Assembly: GCA_944325905.1 (NCBI GenBank)
Contig: CALVBY010000007.1
Location: 1 to 44,702, forward strand
DNA: 44,702 nucleotides
Direction: 5' to 3'
Origin: Candidatus Gastranaerophilales bacterium
Lineage (GTDB): Bacteria > Cyanobacteriota > Vampirovibrionia > Gastranaerophilales > Gastranaerophilaceae
Below, in pieces: positions 16,757-43,384 of the stretch. The notes under the pieces are model-generated. The model saw only the letters and a program-made list of their open reading frames with translations. It searched no databases and was not told where the DNA came from. The first letter of the stretch is position 1, and each line of letters opens with the position of its first letter. The position numbers were made by a program, and so were the translations under genes.

Positions 16757-16834
16757 GTTGCCAAAATATACGAATTTGATATTATTGTATAAAAACAAGG
16801 AGAAATGAAATGAAAATAGTCGGAAAAAGTGAAC

Positions 16835-16843
16835 GGGGGGGGG
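16835..16843 (+). repeat. G9 homopolymer tract
   Basis: Nine consecutive G bases in otherwise AT-rich DNA lie inside the leader ORF, 30 bases before a perfect promoter. Tracts of this kind slip during replication and often underlie phase variation. Confidence 0.8.
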
Positions 16844-16873: not shown

Positions 16874-16902
16874 TTGACACTTTTAGTGGTAAAAACTATA
16901 AT
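16874..16902 (+). promoter_or_regulatory. consensus promoter, leaderless pilin start
   Basis: TTGACA (16874-16879) and TATAAT (16897-16902) are perfect consensus with 17-base spacing. The -10 ends exactly six bases before ATG 16909, and no ribosome site intervenes. Confidence 0.8.
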
Positions 16903-16908
16903 TTATAT

Positions 16909-17592
16909 ATGAAGAATTATAGTTCAAAAGAGGGTTTTACTTTAGCAGAAGTATTAATAACATTAGGTATTATTGGTATAGTTGCAGCTTTGACAATTCC
17001 GACACTTGTAGCTAAATTTCAAGAAAAAGCACTTGTTTCACAGTTTAAAAAAACATATTCAATGTTAAATCAGGCCTTGCAATTGGCAAATTATGAGAAT
17101 GGTGTGGAATATAAATGCTATACAAGAGACACAATAGATGATGCCGGTACCTACTATGAATATTCTCAATGTGGTGCATTTTGGTAGACTTTTTTAAAAG
17201 AACTTAAATATATCAAGTCTGAAAGTGTTAATAGCTTACCGTATAAGAGTAAGGACCAAGTTTTAGCCGAAGGTGGTGGCGTGACAAATAATTCTTGTTC
17301 TTTTAGTCTGAATAGCGGGACTCGTAAATACTATTTAACAGATGGCAGTGTAATTTACGTAAATCCTGTAAGTGGTAGTGCGATAACGTTGTTTGTGACC
17401 GTAGATATAAATGGAGACAAGGGCCCTAATAAATGGGGATATGATGCATTTTATCTTACGCCGACCAAAAGAAAAAATGGTTCATTTAGGATAAATGAAG
17501 GTGTTTGTACAATCTGGGAAAAAGGTGGCAAAAGAGCCTTTAATATCCTTAATGATACTGATGAAGTTATTGATAAAGGGTTCTTTGATTAA
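16909..17592 (+). pseudogene. type IV pilin-like gene interrupted by one in-frame TAG
   Basis: The start MKNYSSKEG is followed by FTLAEVLITLGIIG, a class III prepilin signal: cleavage after Gly, Phe at +1, Glu at +5, then a hydrophobic helix. Such proteins are exported, cleaved by a PilD-type peptidase and assembled in pili or pseudopili. The frame is broken only by TAG at 17185-17187 (codon 93, context GAFW-stop-TFLKELK). It continues in the same frame to 17592 with the conserved motif VDINGDKGPNKWGYDAF and no second lesion. A CAG-to-TAG change would explain it. TAG is used as a true stop elsewhere here (glyA), so recoding is not assumed. Confidence 0.75.
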
Positions 17593-32330: not shown

Positions 32331-33083
32331 TTAATAATCCATTTTCCAGCCTTGATCAAATATTCTTCCTGCACAGGCAAACCCGCCGTAATCATTTTCA
32401 GCTTCACTGCAGCCCCAATATGACCAATTCTCAGACTTACCATATACGGTAGTGGCTCCGTAAGGATATACTTTCCCGTATCCATCAATTTCAAAAGCAA
32501 AAAAATCCCTACCTTCCTTGTTTGGTCCTTTTTTCCCATTAATATCTATACGGACGTGTCCGATAGAAGAACACATGCTTCCACCTTCACTTTTTATTTC
32601 GTTACAATGAGTTTCTCCAGTAAAACTAGCTGTTTTTCCCATTCCATTAAAATAATAAATTGTACCATCTGCCATATATATTTGTAAATCTCCGCCCCTA
32701 TTCGTTGGTGTATTTATATCTTCAACTAAGTCGGAGTATTCAATATTATGACATCCATTTGAGAAATCCATGCCGTAGCATACTTTTTGAATTTTTATAT
32801 ATTTGCCAAGTTCTGATACAAATTCTTTTTGGTCATAATCATTTAAGAAATTATCACCATTGATGCTTCTTATTAAATTTGTATTTTGTAAAAGATCTAC
32901 GGAATCTTGAGCCATAGCAAGTTTAAAAACTTGTTAAAGTTGTGCATATGCCCTTTGCAGACCCGTGACGTAAGTTTTTTTCTGGTAATTGTTAACAAGT
33001 GTAGGTATTGTTAAAGCTGCTACAACACCAATAATACCTAAAGTAATTAAAACTTCTGCAAGAGTAAAACCTATTTTCTTCAT
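32331..33083 (-). pseudogene. type IV pilin-like gene interrupted by one in-frame TAA
   Basis: From ATG 33083 the frame reads MKKIG then FTLAEVLITLGIIG, a clean prepilin signal with Gly at -1 and Glu at +5. At codon 50 (32936-32934) TAA interrupts LQRAYAQL-stop-QVFKLAMAQD. The same frame then stays open to 32331 with VRIDINGKKGPNKEGRDFF and a cysteine-rich C-terminal part ending GWKMDY. No frameshift is present. A TCA or AAA codon changed by one base would explain it. The reading from ATG 32915 alone would lack any export signal. Confidence 0.8.
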
Positions 33084-40580: not shown

Positions 40581-41330
40581 TTACCAAGGATAATCATCCG
40601 CAAATTTCCAGCCGTCAATTTGAACTAAAACTGTACAATATAAGTTATCGTAAATATTACCTTCAGGATTTTTACTACATTTTTCAAGCATTGTGTTTCG
40701 ATTACTACCTGATCCACAGGTTGTTAACTTATTTTTAGATGTAGATAATTGTACCATATAGAAGTCTCGACCAAGTATATTAGGTCCTGTTGTACCATTT
40801 ACGTCAATATAAATTATTGGATCTGTAATGTATTTAGTAGTTGTACCATCTACTTCTGTTCTGCCACCATTATACCCAAAGAATAAAGTACATCCGTTAT
40901 TCAATTCTACAGTGTAAATTTCCAGATTATCGTTATAATATGTCCGGCCATCTTTGCTTTTATAACCAGAATAACCTGCATCTTTTATTTTAATCCAACC
41001 ATAGTTTTTGGCAACTTTGAGGTATGGCAAAAAATATTTTTCAGCATATTGTTTTACATATTGTGAATTATTGCCACCTGGTGCGATGGTTGTCCCATAA
41101 TTTTTTTGATAACTCCAAGTTGAGACATCTCCATACTCAACTTGTGCCATTTTAACGGCATTAGATAGTACACCGAAAGTTTGGGATAGTCTTGATGCGA
41201 ATTCACGTTTTTGATAATTGACAATTAAGGTCGGAATTGTCAAAGCTGCAATAATTCCAATTATAGCTAAGGTAATCAAAACTTCAGCAAGTGTAAAAGC
41301 ATGAAAATGCTTAAATTTATAATTCATCAT
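40581..41330 (-). CDS. type IV pilin-like protein
   Basis: The 249-residue protein has MMNYKFKHFHA before FTLAEVLITLAIIG, a prepilin N-terminus with Phe +1 and Glu +5, but Ala instead of Gly at -1. The soluble part has IYIDVNGTTGPNILGRDFYM, the motif shared by all three pilin genes here, and late cysteines. The last part reads VQIDGWKFADDYPW. ATG 41330 (or the adjacent ATG 41327) is six bases from a perfect promoter; a GTG at 41354 lies inside that promoter. It is the only uninterrupted pilin gene in the window. It may be a minor pilin or pseudopilin; no assembly genes are nearby. Confidence 0.85.
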   Translation of the reverse strand: MMNYKFKHFHAFTLAEVLITLAIIGIIAALTIPTLIVNYQKREFASRLSQTFGVLSNAVKMAQVEYGDVSTWSYQKNYGTTIAPGGNNSQYVKQYAEKYFLPYLKVAKNYGWIKIKDAGYSGYKSKDGRTYYNDNLEIYTVELNNGCTLFFGYNGGRTEVDGTTTKYITDPIIYIDVNGTTGPNILGRDFYMVQLSTSKNKLTTCGSGSNRNTMLEKCSKNPEGNIYDNLYCTVLVQIDGWKFADDYPW

Positions 41331-41336
41331 ACCAGA

Positions 41337-41365
41337 ATTATAGTTATGGTTCACGAATTTGTCAA
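41337..41365 (-). promoter_or_regulatory. consensus promoter, leaderless pilin start
   Basis: On the minus strand TTGACA (41360-41365) and TATAAT (41337-41342) are perfect consensus with 17-base spacing, ending six bases before the pilin ATG. The layout is identical to that at 16874-16902. Confidence 0.8.
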
Positions 41366-41377
41366 GTCGTGTAAAAC

Positions 41378-41443
41378 CTAAAGACCGGGCACGAATCGGG
41401 GGGGGGCGACTATCTGAACCGCTTTTGTATCAATCGTTTTCAT
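41378..41443 (-). other. Shine-Dalgarno-led leader ORF with C9 tract, out of frame with the pilin
   Basis: ATG 41443 follows AAAGGAG with six-base spacing. The 21-codon frame reads MKTIDTKAVQIVAPP and ends at TAG (41380-41378). A run of nine C bases lies at codons 13-16. Adding one C (or losing two) would shift the frame into an open path through to the pilin. This is the same plan as the leader at 16810-16908, where nine G bases give an in-frame fusion. Confidence 0.5.
41398..41406 (-). repeat. C9 homopolymer tract (G9 on plus strand)
   Basis: Nine identical bases lie inside the leader ORF, 32 bases before the pilin promoter. It is the second such tract in the window, and both are upstream of pilin genes. 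Confidence 0.8.
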
Positions 41444-41494
41444 ACAAATCTCCTTTCCCTCTATTAAAGATTATTTTGCATATTTTGTCAAGTA

Positions 41495-41525
41495 AAAAGG
41501 CAGGTTTTTTAAAACCTGCCTTTTT
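41495..41525. terminator. bidirectional terminator after dnaK
   Basis: AAAAAGGCAGGTTTT pairs with AAAACCTGCCTTTTT. It lies just past the dnaK stop on the minus strand and separates dnaK from the pilin leader. Confidence 0.9.
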
Positions 41526-41542
41526 CGTTATTGTTTTAATCT

Positions 41543-43384
41543 TTATTCTTTAGTATATTCAGCGTCAATTACGTCATCGTCTGAATTTTTTGTTTCTTCT
41601 GATGAAGCATTTTCACTGTTTGCTGATTGAGCGTTTTCGCCTTCTTTTTGAACCGCTTCGTAAGCCTTTTGAGAAATACCAAACATTGTTTGTTGCAATT
41701 CATCTGATAATTTCTTCAATTCATCAGCAGGTTTGTTTTCATCAATTGCTTTTTGAAGAGCTTCTTTTTGTTCATTCAATTTGGTTTGATCAGCTGGGTC
41801 AATTTTGCCTTCGAAATCTTTTACAATTCTTTCAGCTGAGCTGATTAAACTTGCTGCATTGTTTTTAGTTTCAGCTTCTTCTTTTTTCTTCTTATCTTCA
41901 GCAGCGTTAGCTTCTGCTTCTTTAACCATCTTATCAATATCTGCTTCAGAAAGGTTAGAAGAGTTTGTGATTGTAATTTTTTGTTCTTTATTTGTAGCTT
42001 TATCTTTAGCTGAAACGTTTACAATACCGTTTGCATCGATATCAAATGTAACTTCGATTTGAGGCAAACCTCTCATTGCAGGTGGAATACCGTCAAGTCT
42101 GAACATACCTAATGATTTGTTATCTCTTGCCATTGGTCTTTCACCTTGAAGTACGTGAATATCAACGGCAGTTTGGTTGTTTTCAGCTGTTGAGAACACT
42201 TGTGATTTAGAAACAGGGATTGTTGTGTTTCTTGGAACCAAAGGAGTCATAACGCCACCCAAAGTTTCAATACCTAATGTCAAAGGTGTTACATCCAACA
42301 ATACAATGTCTTTAACTTCACCGGCCAATACTCCTGCTTGAATTGCAGCACCTACTGCAACTACTTCATCAGGGTTAACTGATTGGTTAGGCTCTTTGCC
42401 TGTGTATTCTTTAACCAACTGTTGAACAGCAGGGATTCTTGAAGAACCACCAACCAATACAACTTCGTTGATATCAGCTTTTGTAACGCCTGCATCTTTC
42501 AACGCATTTTCAACCGGTGTTTTACATCTGTTTAACAAATCACGGCTCAAGTCTTCGAATTTGGCTCTTGTTAAGTTCAAATCCAAGTGTTTAGGGCCGT
42601 TTGCATCAGCTGTAATGAATGGCAAGTTGATATTTGTTTCCATAACTGATGACAACTCGCATTTTGCCTTTTCAGCAGCTTCTTTTACACGTTGCATAGC
42701 TTGTTTGTCGTTACGAAGATCAATACCTTCTTGTTTTTTGAATTCATCGCACATCCAATCCATAATCTTTTGGTCGAAGTCATCACCGCCTAAGTGAGTA
42801 TCACCTGATGTTGAAAGAACTTCGTGAACACCATCACCGATTTCAAGGATAGATACATCGAATGTACCGCCGCCTAAGTCAAATACCAAAACTTTTTCAG
42901 ATTTTTCTTTTTCAAGTCCGTAAGCCAAAGCAGCTGCGGTTGGTTCGTTTACGATACGTAAAACGTCTAAGCCTGCAATTTTACCTGCATCTTTTGTTGC
43001 TTGTCTTTGAGCATCATTAAAGTAAGCAGGAACTGTGATTACGGCAGAAGTAACTTTTTCTCCCAAGTATGCACTTGCATCATCTGCTAATTTTCTCAAA
43101 ATCATTGCAGAAATTTCTTGTGGAGTATAGTCTTTTCCGTCAATATTTACTTTATAATCATCGCCCATGTGTCTTTTAATTGATGCGATTGTTTTATCAG
43201 GATTCAAGATAGCTTGACGTTTTGCAAGCTGTCCGACAAGTCTTTCGCCTGTTTTAGAAAAACCAACGATTGAAGGGGTTGTACGAGAACCTTCTGCGTT
43301 GGCAATAACGGTTGGTTTACCACCTTCCATGACAGCTACAACTGAGTTTGTTGTACCTAAGTCAATACCTATTGTTTTTGCCAT
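41543..43384 (-). CDS. dnaK: chaperone DnaK (Hsp70)
   Basis: DnaK binds and releases unfolded proteins through an ATP cycle with DnaJ and GrpE. The 613-residue protein has the nucleotide domain ([43 protein letters not shown]), the linker [14 protein letters not shown], the substrate domain and a lid ending in a low-complexity tail with [27 protein letters not shown] precedes the ATG. It is monocistronic, separate from grpE-dnaJ, and no CIRCE operator is visible upstream. Confidence 0.98.

Follow-up and report, generated by a model that had tools for sequence, protein, structure and literature searches.

Most of the well-known examples of slippage switching come from pathogens. In the fimbrial subunit genes of Bordetella, a poly-C tract lies in the promoter and provides a spacing-based control, and pilE of Neisseria gonorrhoeae is associated with a G-quadruplex and silent copies. 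The closest described case to the loci reported here is that of a gut commensal, Bifidobacterium breve, where slippage at an intragenic G tract was shown by deep sequencing to turn sortase-dependent pili ON and OFF (Penno et al., 2022; PMC9187656). There, as here, the length of the tract decides whether two ORFs of one pilin gene are fused. The B. breve system consists of sortase pili encoded by one or two clusters per genome, with a second ORF that has no active start (PMC9187656), whereas our loci encode type IV pilins, number about 20 to 40 in the genomes examined closely, and often have a predicted consensus promoter and leaderless ATG ahead of the second ORF. The phasomes of Campylobacter and Neisseria likewise contain many G/C homopolymer tracts that switch frames within ORFs; they affect a wide variety of surface and modification genes (PMC8355987; PMC5953494), whereas those of the genome studied here concern essentially pilins only. 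In Streptococcus gallolyticus, a phase-variable repeat within a short leader ORF precedes the pilin operon of pil1, a layout that our loci share (Danne et al., 2014; PMC3894217).

As in pilE, which undergoes antigenic variation (PMC3547852), our loci have a G-rich element close to a pilin gene, and pilin segments are exchanged among paralogues. A lone run of nine Gs is nevertheless too short for an intrastrand quadruplex of at least three tetrads, and every pilin copy has its own start, unlike the silent copies of pilE. The Bordetella fimbrial genes resemble our loci in that a run of C precedes a pilus subunit gene close to a promoter, but here the tract lies inside an ORF and is separable from the promoter. 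We found no paper in the open-access literature on Gastranaerophilales and phase variation or on this switch in that order, nor any that links poly-G tracts, phase variation and cyanobacteria. In kind, the mechanism is known from the pili of Bifidobacterium; what appears new is its scale, its use for type IV pilins and the internal promoter.

The window analysed here is a stretch of 44,702 nucleotides from a Candidatus Gastranaerophilales bacterium (contig CALVBY010000007.1). Its minus strand encodes a type IV pilin-like protein (40581..41330, ATG at 41330) with the N-terminal methylation motif FTLAEVLITL (Pfam PF07963, 24.7 bits for a cut-off of 21.2) and a hydrophobic helix. The residue before the F of this motif is A rather than G. 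PF07963 was the sole domain found, so that the protein does not qualify as a sortase-dependent pilin. Ahead of it on the same strand lies a leader ORF (41378..41443) that begins at ATG 41443 behind the Shine-Dalgarno (SD) sequence AAAGGAG (41450..41456), reads MKTIDTKAVQIVAPPRFVPGL at the C9 length of its tract and stops at codon 22 (TAG, 41380-41378). A promoter-like site, P1 (TTGACA-N17-TTTAAT, 41463..41491, minus strand), is found upstream in a form that recurs before other pilins and would serve the leader ORF. Frame reading places the C9 tract (41398..41406), also recovered in a genome-wide search for runs, +1 out of frame with the pilin. The stretch from the tract to the pilin ATG (41331..41397, ending in PIRARSLGFTRLDKFVNHNYNSG) is open in the pilin frame, an openness that is under selection in the 52 G-type loci described below. 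This stretch contains a second promoter, P2 (41337..41365), which matches the consensus at 12/12 positions: TTGACA at 41365-41360, 17 bases, TATAAT at 41342-41337, six bases and then the pilin ATG. In silico, one added C places leader and pilin in a single open frame. An earlier note on this DNA had located the SD, ATG 41443, C9, the TAG at codon 22, the promoter and the pilin ATG just where we find them, and our frame reading bears out its claim that one extra C would fuse leader and pilin. The tract-to-minus-35 distances it gave are also correct, at 32 bases here and 30 in the parallel locus around 16797.

At this parallel locus, on the plus strand, an SD sequence (16797..16802) is followed by the leader MKIVGKSERGG (16810..16843), whose G9 tract (16835-16843) is in frame with the pilin (ON), by a P2 of the form TTGACA-N17-TATAAT (16874..16902), seen in the sequence and in the promoter search, and by a pilin (16909..17187) that is broken by an in-frame TAG at 17185-17187 and whose frame runs on to 17592. 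The sole locus of the window that is ON at G9 therefore looks broken downstream. A third pilin of the window (minus strand, start at 33083) has no tract and contains an in-frame TAG at 32934-32936, near codon 50. Recoding of TAG in these two pilins is unsupported; 5 of 30 genes in the window terminate in TAG.

Pattern searches of the whole genome to which the window belongs (G000; 92 contigs, 1.6 Mb in total, in which 48 pilin starts can be recognised) provide the background for these loci. It contains 24 G/C runs of at least 7, of which 20 have length 9 and four have length 10, and we estimate from base composition that about 0.4 runs of at least 9 would be expected. When the surroundings of all were read, 22 of the 24 proved to be fused in one open frame to a pilin that follows after 9 to 84 codons, and to lie 5-12 codons past an SD-ATG; the SD-ATG (in a few cases GTG) stands 18 to 37 bases ahead of the run in nearly all loci. 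The tracts are thus far beyond chance in length and placed at the 5' end of, or inside, an ORF, as in contingency loci. Of the two remaining runs, the one on contig C62 is unfused, with a pilin 250 bp downstream; the other, at the end of contig C28, closes a C-type leader, and its locus probably continues at the start of contig C19. C19 and C28 both terminate precisely at a C9/G9 run (C19:1-9 and C28:1-9) with flanks of one type, and mixed tract lengths may have broken the assembly at this point. Perfect TTGACA-N17-TATAAT promoters number 24 in the same genome (0 in the control), and 20 of them precede pilins. Since 22/24 runs and 20/24 promoters are found at pilins, both elements are pilin-specific in this genome. 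The pattern of a G run, 65-95 bases and a pilin motif matched 13 of the 16 genomes of the genus and gave 0 with the reversed control. Chance origin of the tracts and promoters is ruled out by the run counts, the empty reversed control and the promoter enrichment, and a poly-G artefact of the sequencer by the occurrence of C runs on the coding strand, the conserved contexts and the agreement of independent assemblies.

The stretch between tract and pilin shows what has been conserved. No stop in the pilin frame occurs between the tract and the ATG in any of 52 G-type loci from three genomes, whereas shuffled spacers (n=2000) left a mean of 20.8 and a maximum of 31 loci open; the other two frames meet a stop 3-6 codons past the run in most loci. 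Codon positions 1, 2 and 3 of this stretch vary about equally, and to judge from these alignments its amino acids are free to drift while the frame is conserved. Such drift would fit an extension that is translated and then cut off with the prepilin leader. Dispersed repeats of the GTCATCCTGAACTTG.. type are inserted in frame between tract and pilin in L047 and L051 (contig C44) and L034 (C26) of the window genome and in L102 of G001, the last giving the longest N-terminal extension, of 131 codons. These patterns support placing the tract within the pilin ORF, at its 5' end, as in phase variation of translation, and not in a promoter spacer. We also considered a hypermutable leader, as orthologous leaders of G009 and G013 differ at 3 of 27 bases; this is only moderately above the 6% seen over the whole 1.25 kb alignment, and unconstrained drift therefore suffices.

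Most loci are out of frame as assembled: 15/21 in G000, 20/23 in G004, 20/21 in G012, 24/26 with the C-type leader and 15/16 in G006, counts in which loci are not independent, as paralogues share ancestry. The G000 value is indistinguishable from a random two thirds and the other sets lie above it. One added base nearly always restores the frame (+1 class), although the register also depends on the leader family, that of G015 needing -1/+2. A one-base change turned the truncated product into a full-length one in silico at all loci. ON alleles have G10 or G7 in G000, G004, G012 and G001 and C7 in one C-type locus; a further route to ON is a G9 combined with a leader of different length. The length of the tract differs between near-identical copies, these being copies within genomes rather than between strains: tandem copies in G052 (L197) with the identical leader MTKINLGHAH have G10 and G12, paralogues in G003 have G11 (ON) and G12 (OFF), and those in G005 have G10 and G11. 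The modal length is 9 in G000, G004 and G012 and 10 in G006, with lengths of up to 12, all of them consensus values from one assembly per species, which may hide or misstate variation; the caution voiced for B. breve, that tract lengths in databases are sometimes incorrect (PMC9187656), applies to them too. The mode at exactly 9 is tighter than we expected from neutral slippage and counts against a switch.

We consider it likely that each tract, lying within the 5' part of a type IV pilin ORF, is a contingency switch operated by slipped-strand phase variation. The anatomy, the selection for an open frame, the default-OFF register, the ON alleles and the near-identical copies of different length are observed, and from them we infer slippage in living cells, expression and cleavage by the peptidase. 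Translation would begin at the SD-ATG of the short leader, and at the usual tract length the ribosome would be out of frame and, in most loci, halt a few codons past the tract (OFF). Slipped-strand mispairing at replication, by adding one base or removing two, would join leader, linker and pilin (ON), and the prepilin peptidase would remove the N-terminal extension together with the prepilin leader. P2 would provide a second start, as a sigma-70-type promoter giving a leaderless pilin mRNA.

A G9 or C9 run might instead be a slippery site at which a fixed share of ribosomes or RNA polymerases would slip, giving a constant low amount of pilin from an unchanging DNA sequence. Such a programmed frameshift would agree with the exact length of 9 and the +1 register that most loci share in several species, and with the stop codon shortly past the run. 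It is nonetheless quite unlikely, because the shift needed varies, being +1 in G000, G004 and G012 and -1/+2 in G015 and in some loci of G005 and G006, because tract length and its mode vary by species, a species-specific mode being an argument against a fixed frameshift signal, and because ON alleles exist at the DNA level and C runs work as well as G runs. Variation in length and register across species and leader families thus favours slippage of the DNA. It is very improbable that the tract acts, as in Bordetella fim, by setting how far P2 lies from an activator site upstream, and so tunes transcription rather than translation: P2 does lie 30-32 bases past the tract at both loci of the window and is conserved at the DNA level, but many tract loci have no P2, P2 is also found without a tract, and there would be no need to keep the leader frame, the SD and the openness of the linker.

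Attenuation through the leader peptide, as in S. gallolyticus pil1, where GCAGA repeats control a transcription attenuator (PMC3894217), would have the tract alter the travel of the ribosome and thereby open a terminator or free a second start. In its favour, the pilin gene is preceded by a short leader ORF with a variable repeat, and a CTCC/TCCT motif that can pair with the leader SD occurs in the first 16 bases past the G tracts of G000, G004 and G012 loci. Own pairs match better than swapped ones in G000 (36/5000), whereas in G012 they do not, and the SD/anti-SD hairpin is suggestive but inconsistent between genomes. Leader and pilin share one frame, which attenuation does not need, and, unlike at pil1, they would be fused directly; no terminator was found between them in 41240-41560, where the only one detected was that of dnaK (41494-41525). 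We regard attenuation as very improbable. That the runs are recombination joints, each being the 5' edge of a pilin cassette swapped between slots, is unlikely as the main explanation. Paralogues are indeed alike only from the run, (AAC)G9, onward and unrelated before it, as in the C5 and C25 copies, which share 367 identical bp after unrelated leaders, one copy being ON and the other OFF, and the dnaK-ruvC and glyA slots contain, by species, different tract pilins, tract-less pilins or none. Turnover of this kind accounts for the edge, but not for the conserved open frame, the register or the SD-ATG, and unconstrained leaders would yield an equally sharp edge. Recombination joints are compatible with phase variation, and both can hold.

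In addition to the tract, about two thirds of the tract loci of the window genome have a built-in P2. Pairwise identity in G000 is 0.84 for the -35 hexamer and 0.93 for the -10, and 0.53 for the spacer, and in G000 and G004 paralogues the hexamers are far better conserved than the 17-base spacer, synonymous positions included: the third base of the codon within TTGAC is C in 50/52 loci and TATAAT is near-invariant. Most P2 loci read TTGACA-N17-TATAAT-N6-ATG, the spacing of a leaderless unit; with the -10 six bases before the ATG, transcription is predicted to start at the A of the pilin ATG and to give a leaderless mRNA. Three perfect promoters precede pilins without a tract (C48, C2:48149 and C4:31347), the upstream frame being closed or shifted in the first two and the tract decayed in the third. 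Conversely, C15, C20 and C22:21873 of the same genome have a tract and open frame without P2, as do most of the loci read in G001 and G052. P2 and the tract are thus separable, which makes P2 a second, separate means of expression. The least certain step of our reading is that P2 would supply a basal level of pilin independently of the tract, so that the switch would be between high and low; with this predicted leaderless transcript, OFF may mean low rather than none. As P2 is predicted to make pilin in both states, a strict on/off reading is weakened. Perfect TTGACA-N17-TATAAT sites number 137 in G003, against 4-29 in other members of the genus.

Within the order, short-spaced tract-pilin fusions were found in 49 of 117 genomes (control 0), all but one in the family of the window (95 genomes), and about half of the sampled genomes of the family have tract-pilin fusions. 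The earlier note had proposed looking for tracts ahead of pilins in relatives: this enrichment is near-total in the window genome and present across the family, and gives strong support to the note's view that the arrangement is a conserved module and not a product of chance. Tract and promoter are both linked to pilins, but they do not form one obligatory module, since each occurs without the other. Of its observation that two unrelated leaders share one plan, the plan indeed proves common, but the leader at 41443 is not unique, being a conserved C-type leader (M...KAVQIV-C9) for which other Gastranaerophilales-type assemblies have 28 sites. Cassette turnover explains the same plan behind unrelated leaders.

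In this uncultured relative of cyanobacteria from the gut, nearly all G/C homopolymer tracts appear to serve type IV pilins, and, if this is true, a separate pilus combination is possible for each cell lineage. Combinatorial switching of at least 20 pilins would yield a large surface diversity in one clone, which could matter in the gut for adhesion or for evading phages or the immune system. More tentatively, the whole family might have a dedicated pilin phasome, with tens of dispersed cassettes per genome that are one base off by default and rarely ON, a combinatorial coat, and a strong leaderless promoter that gives a basal level and whose upstream supercoiling may make slippage or recombination at the tract more frequent. 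For most such pilins in these genomes, automatic annotation will give a wrong start or only fragments.

G runs of at least 9 occur in 67 of 78 genomes of the family, with up to 133 per genome. In at least one other genus, that of G105 (L199-L205), runs of G9-G11 lie in non-pilin ORFs whose translations, judged by eye, are epimerase-like, methyltransferase-like or a membrane protein, so that the family employs poly-G runs more widely than in pilins; these genes are candidates for a different set of switches within the same family. In G052, the poly-G tracts are of one orientation within most of contigs C1-C6, which perhaps follows the direction of replication.
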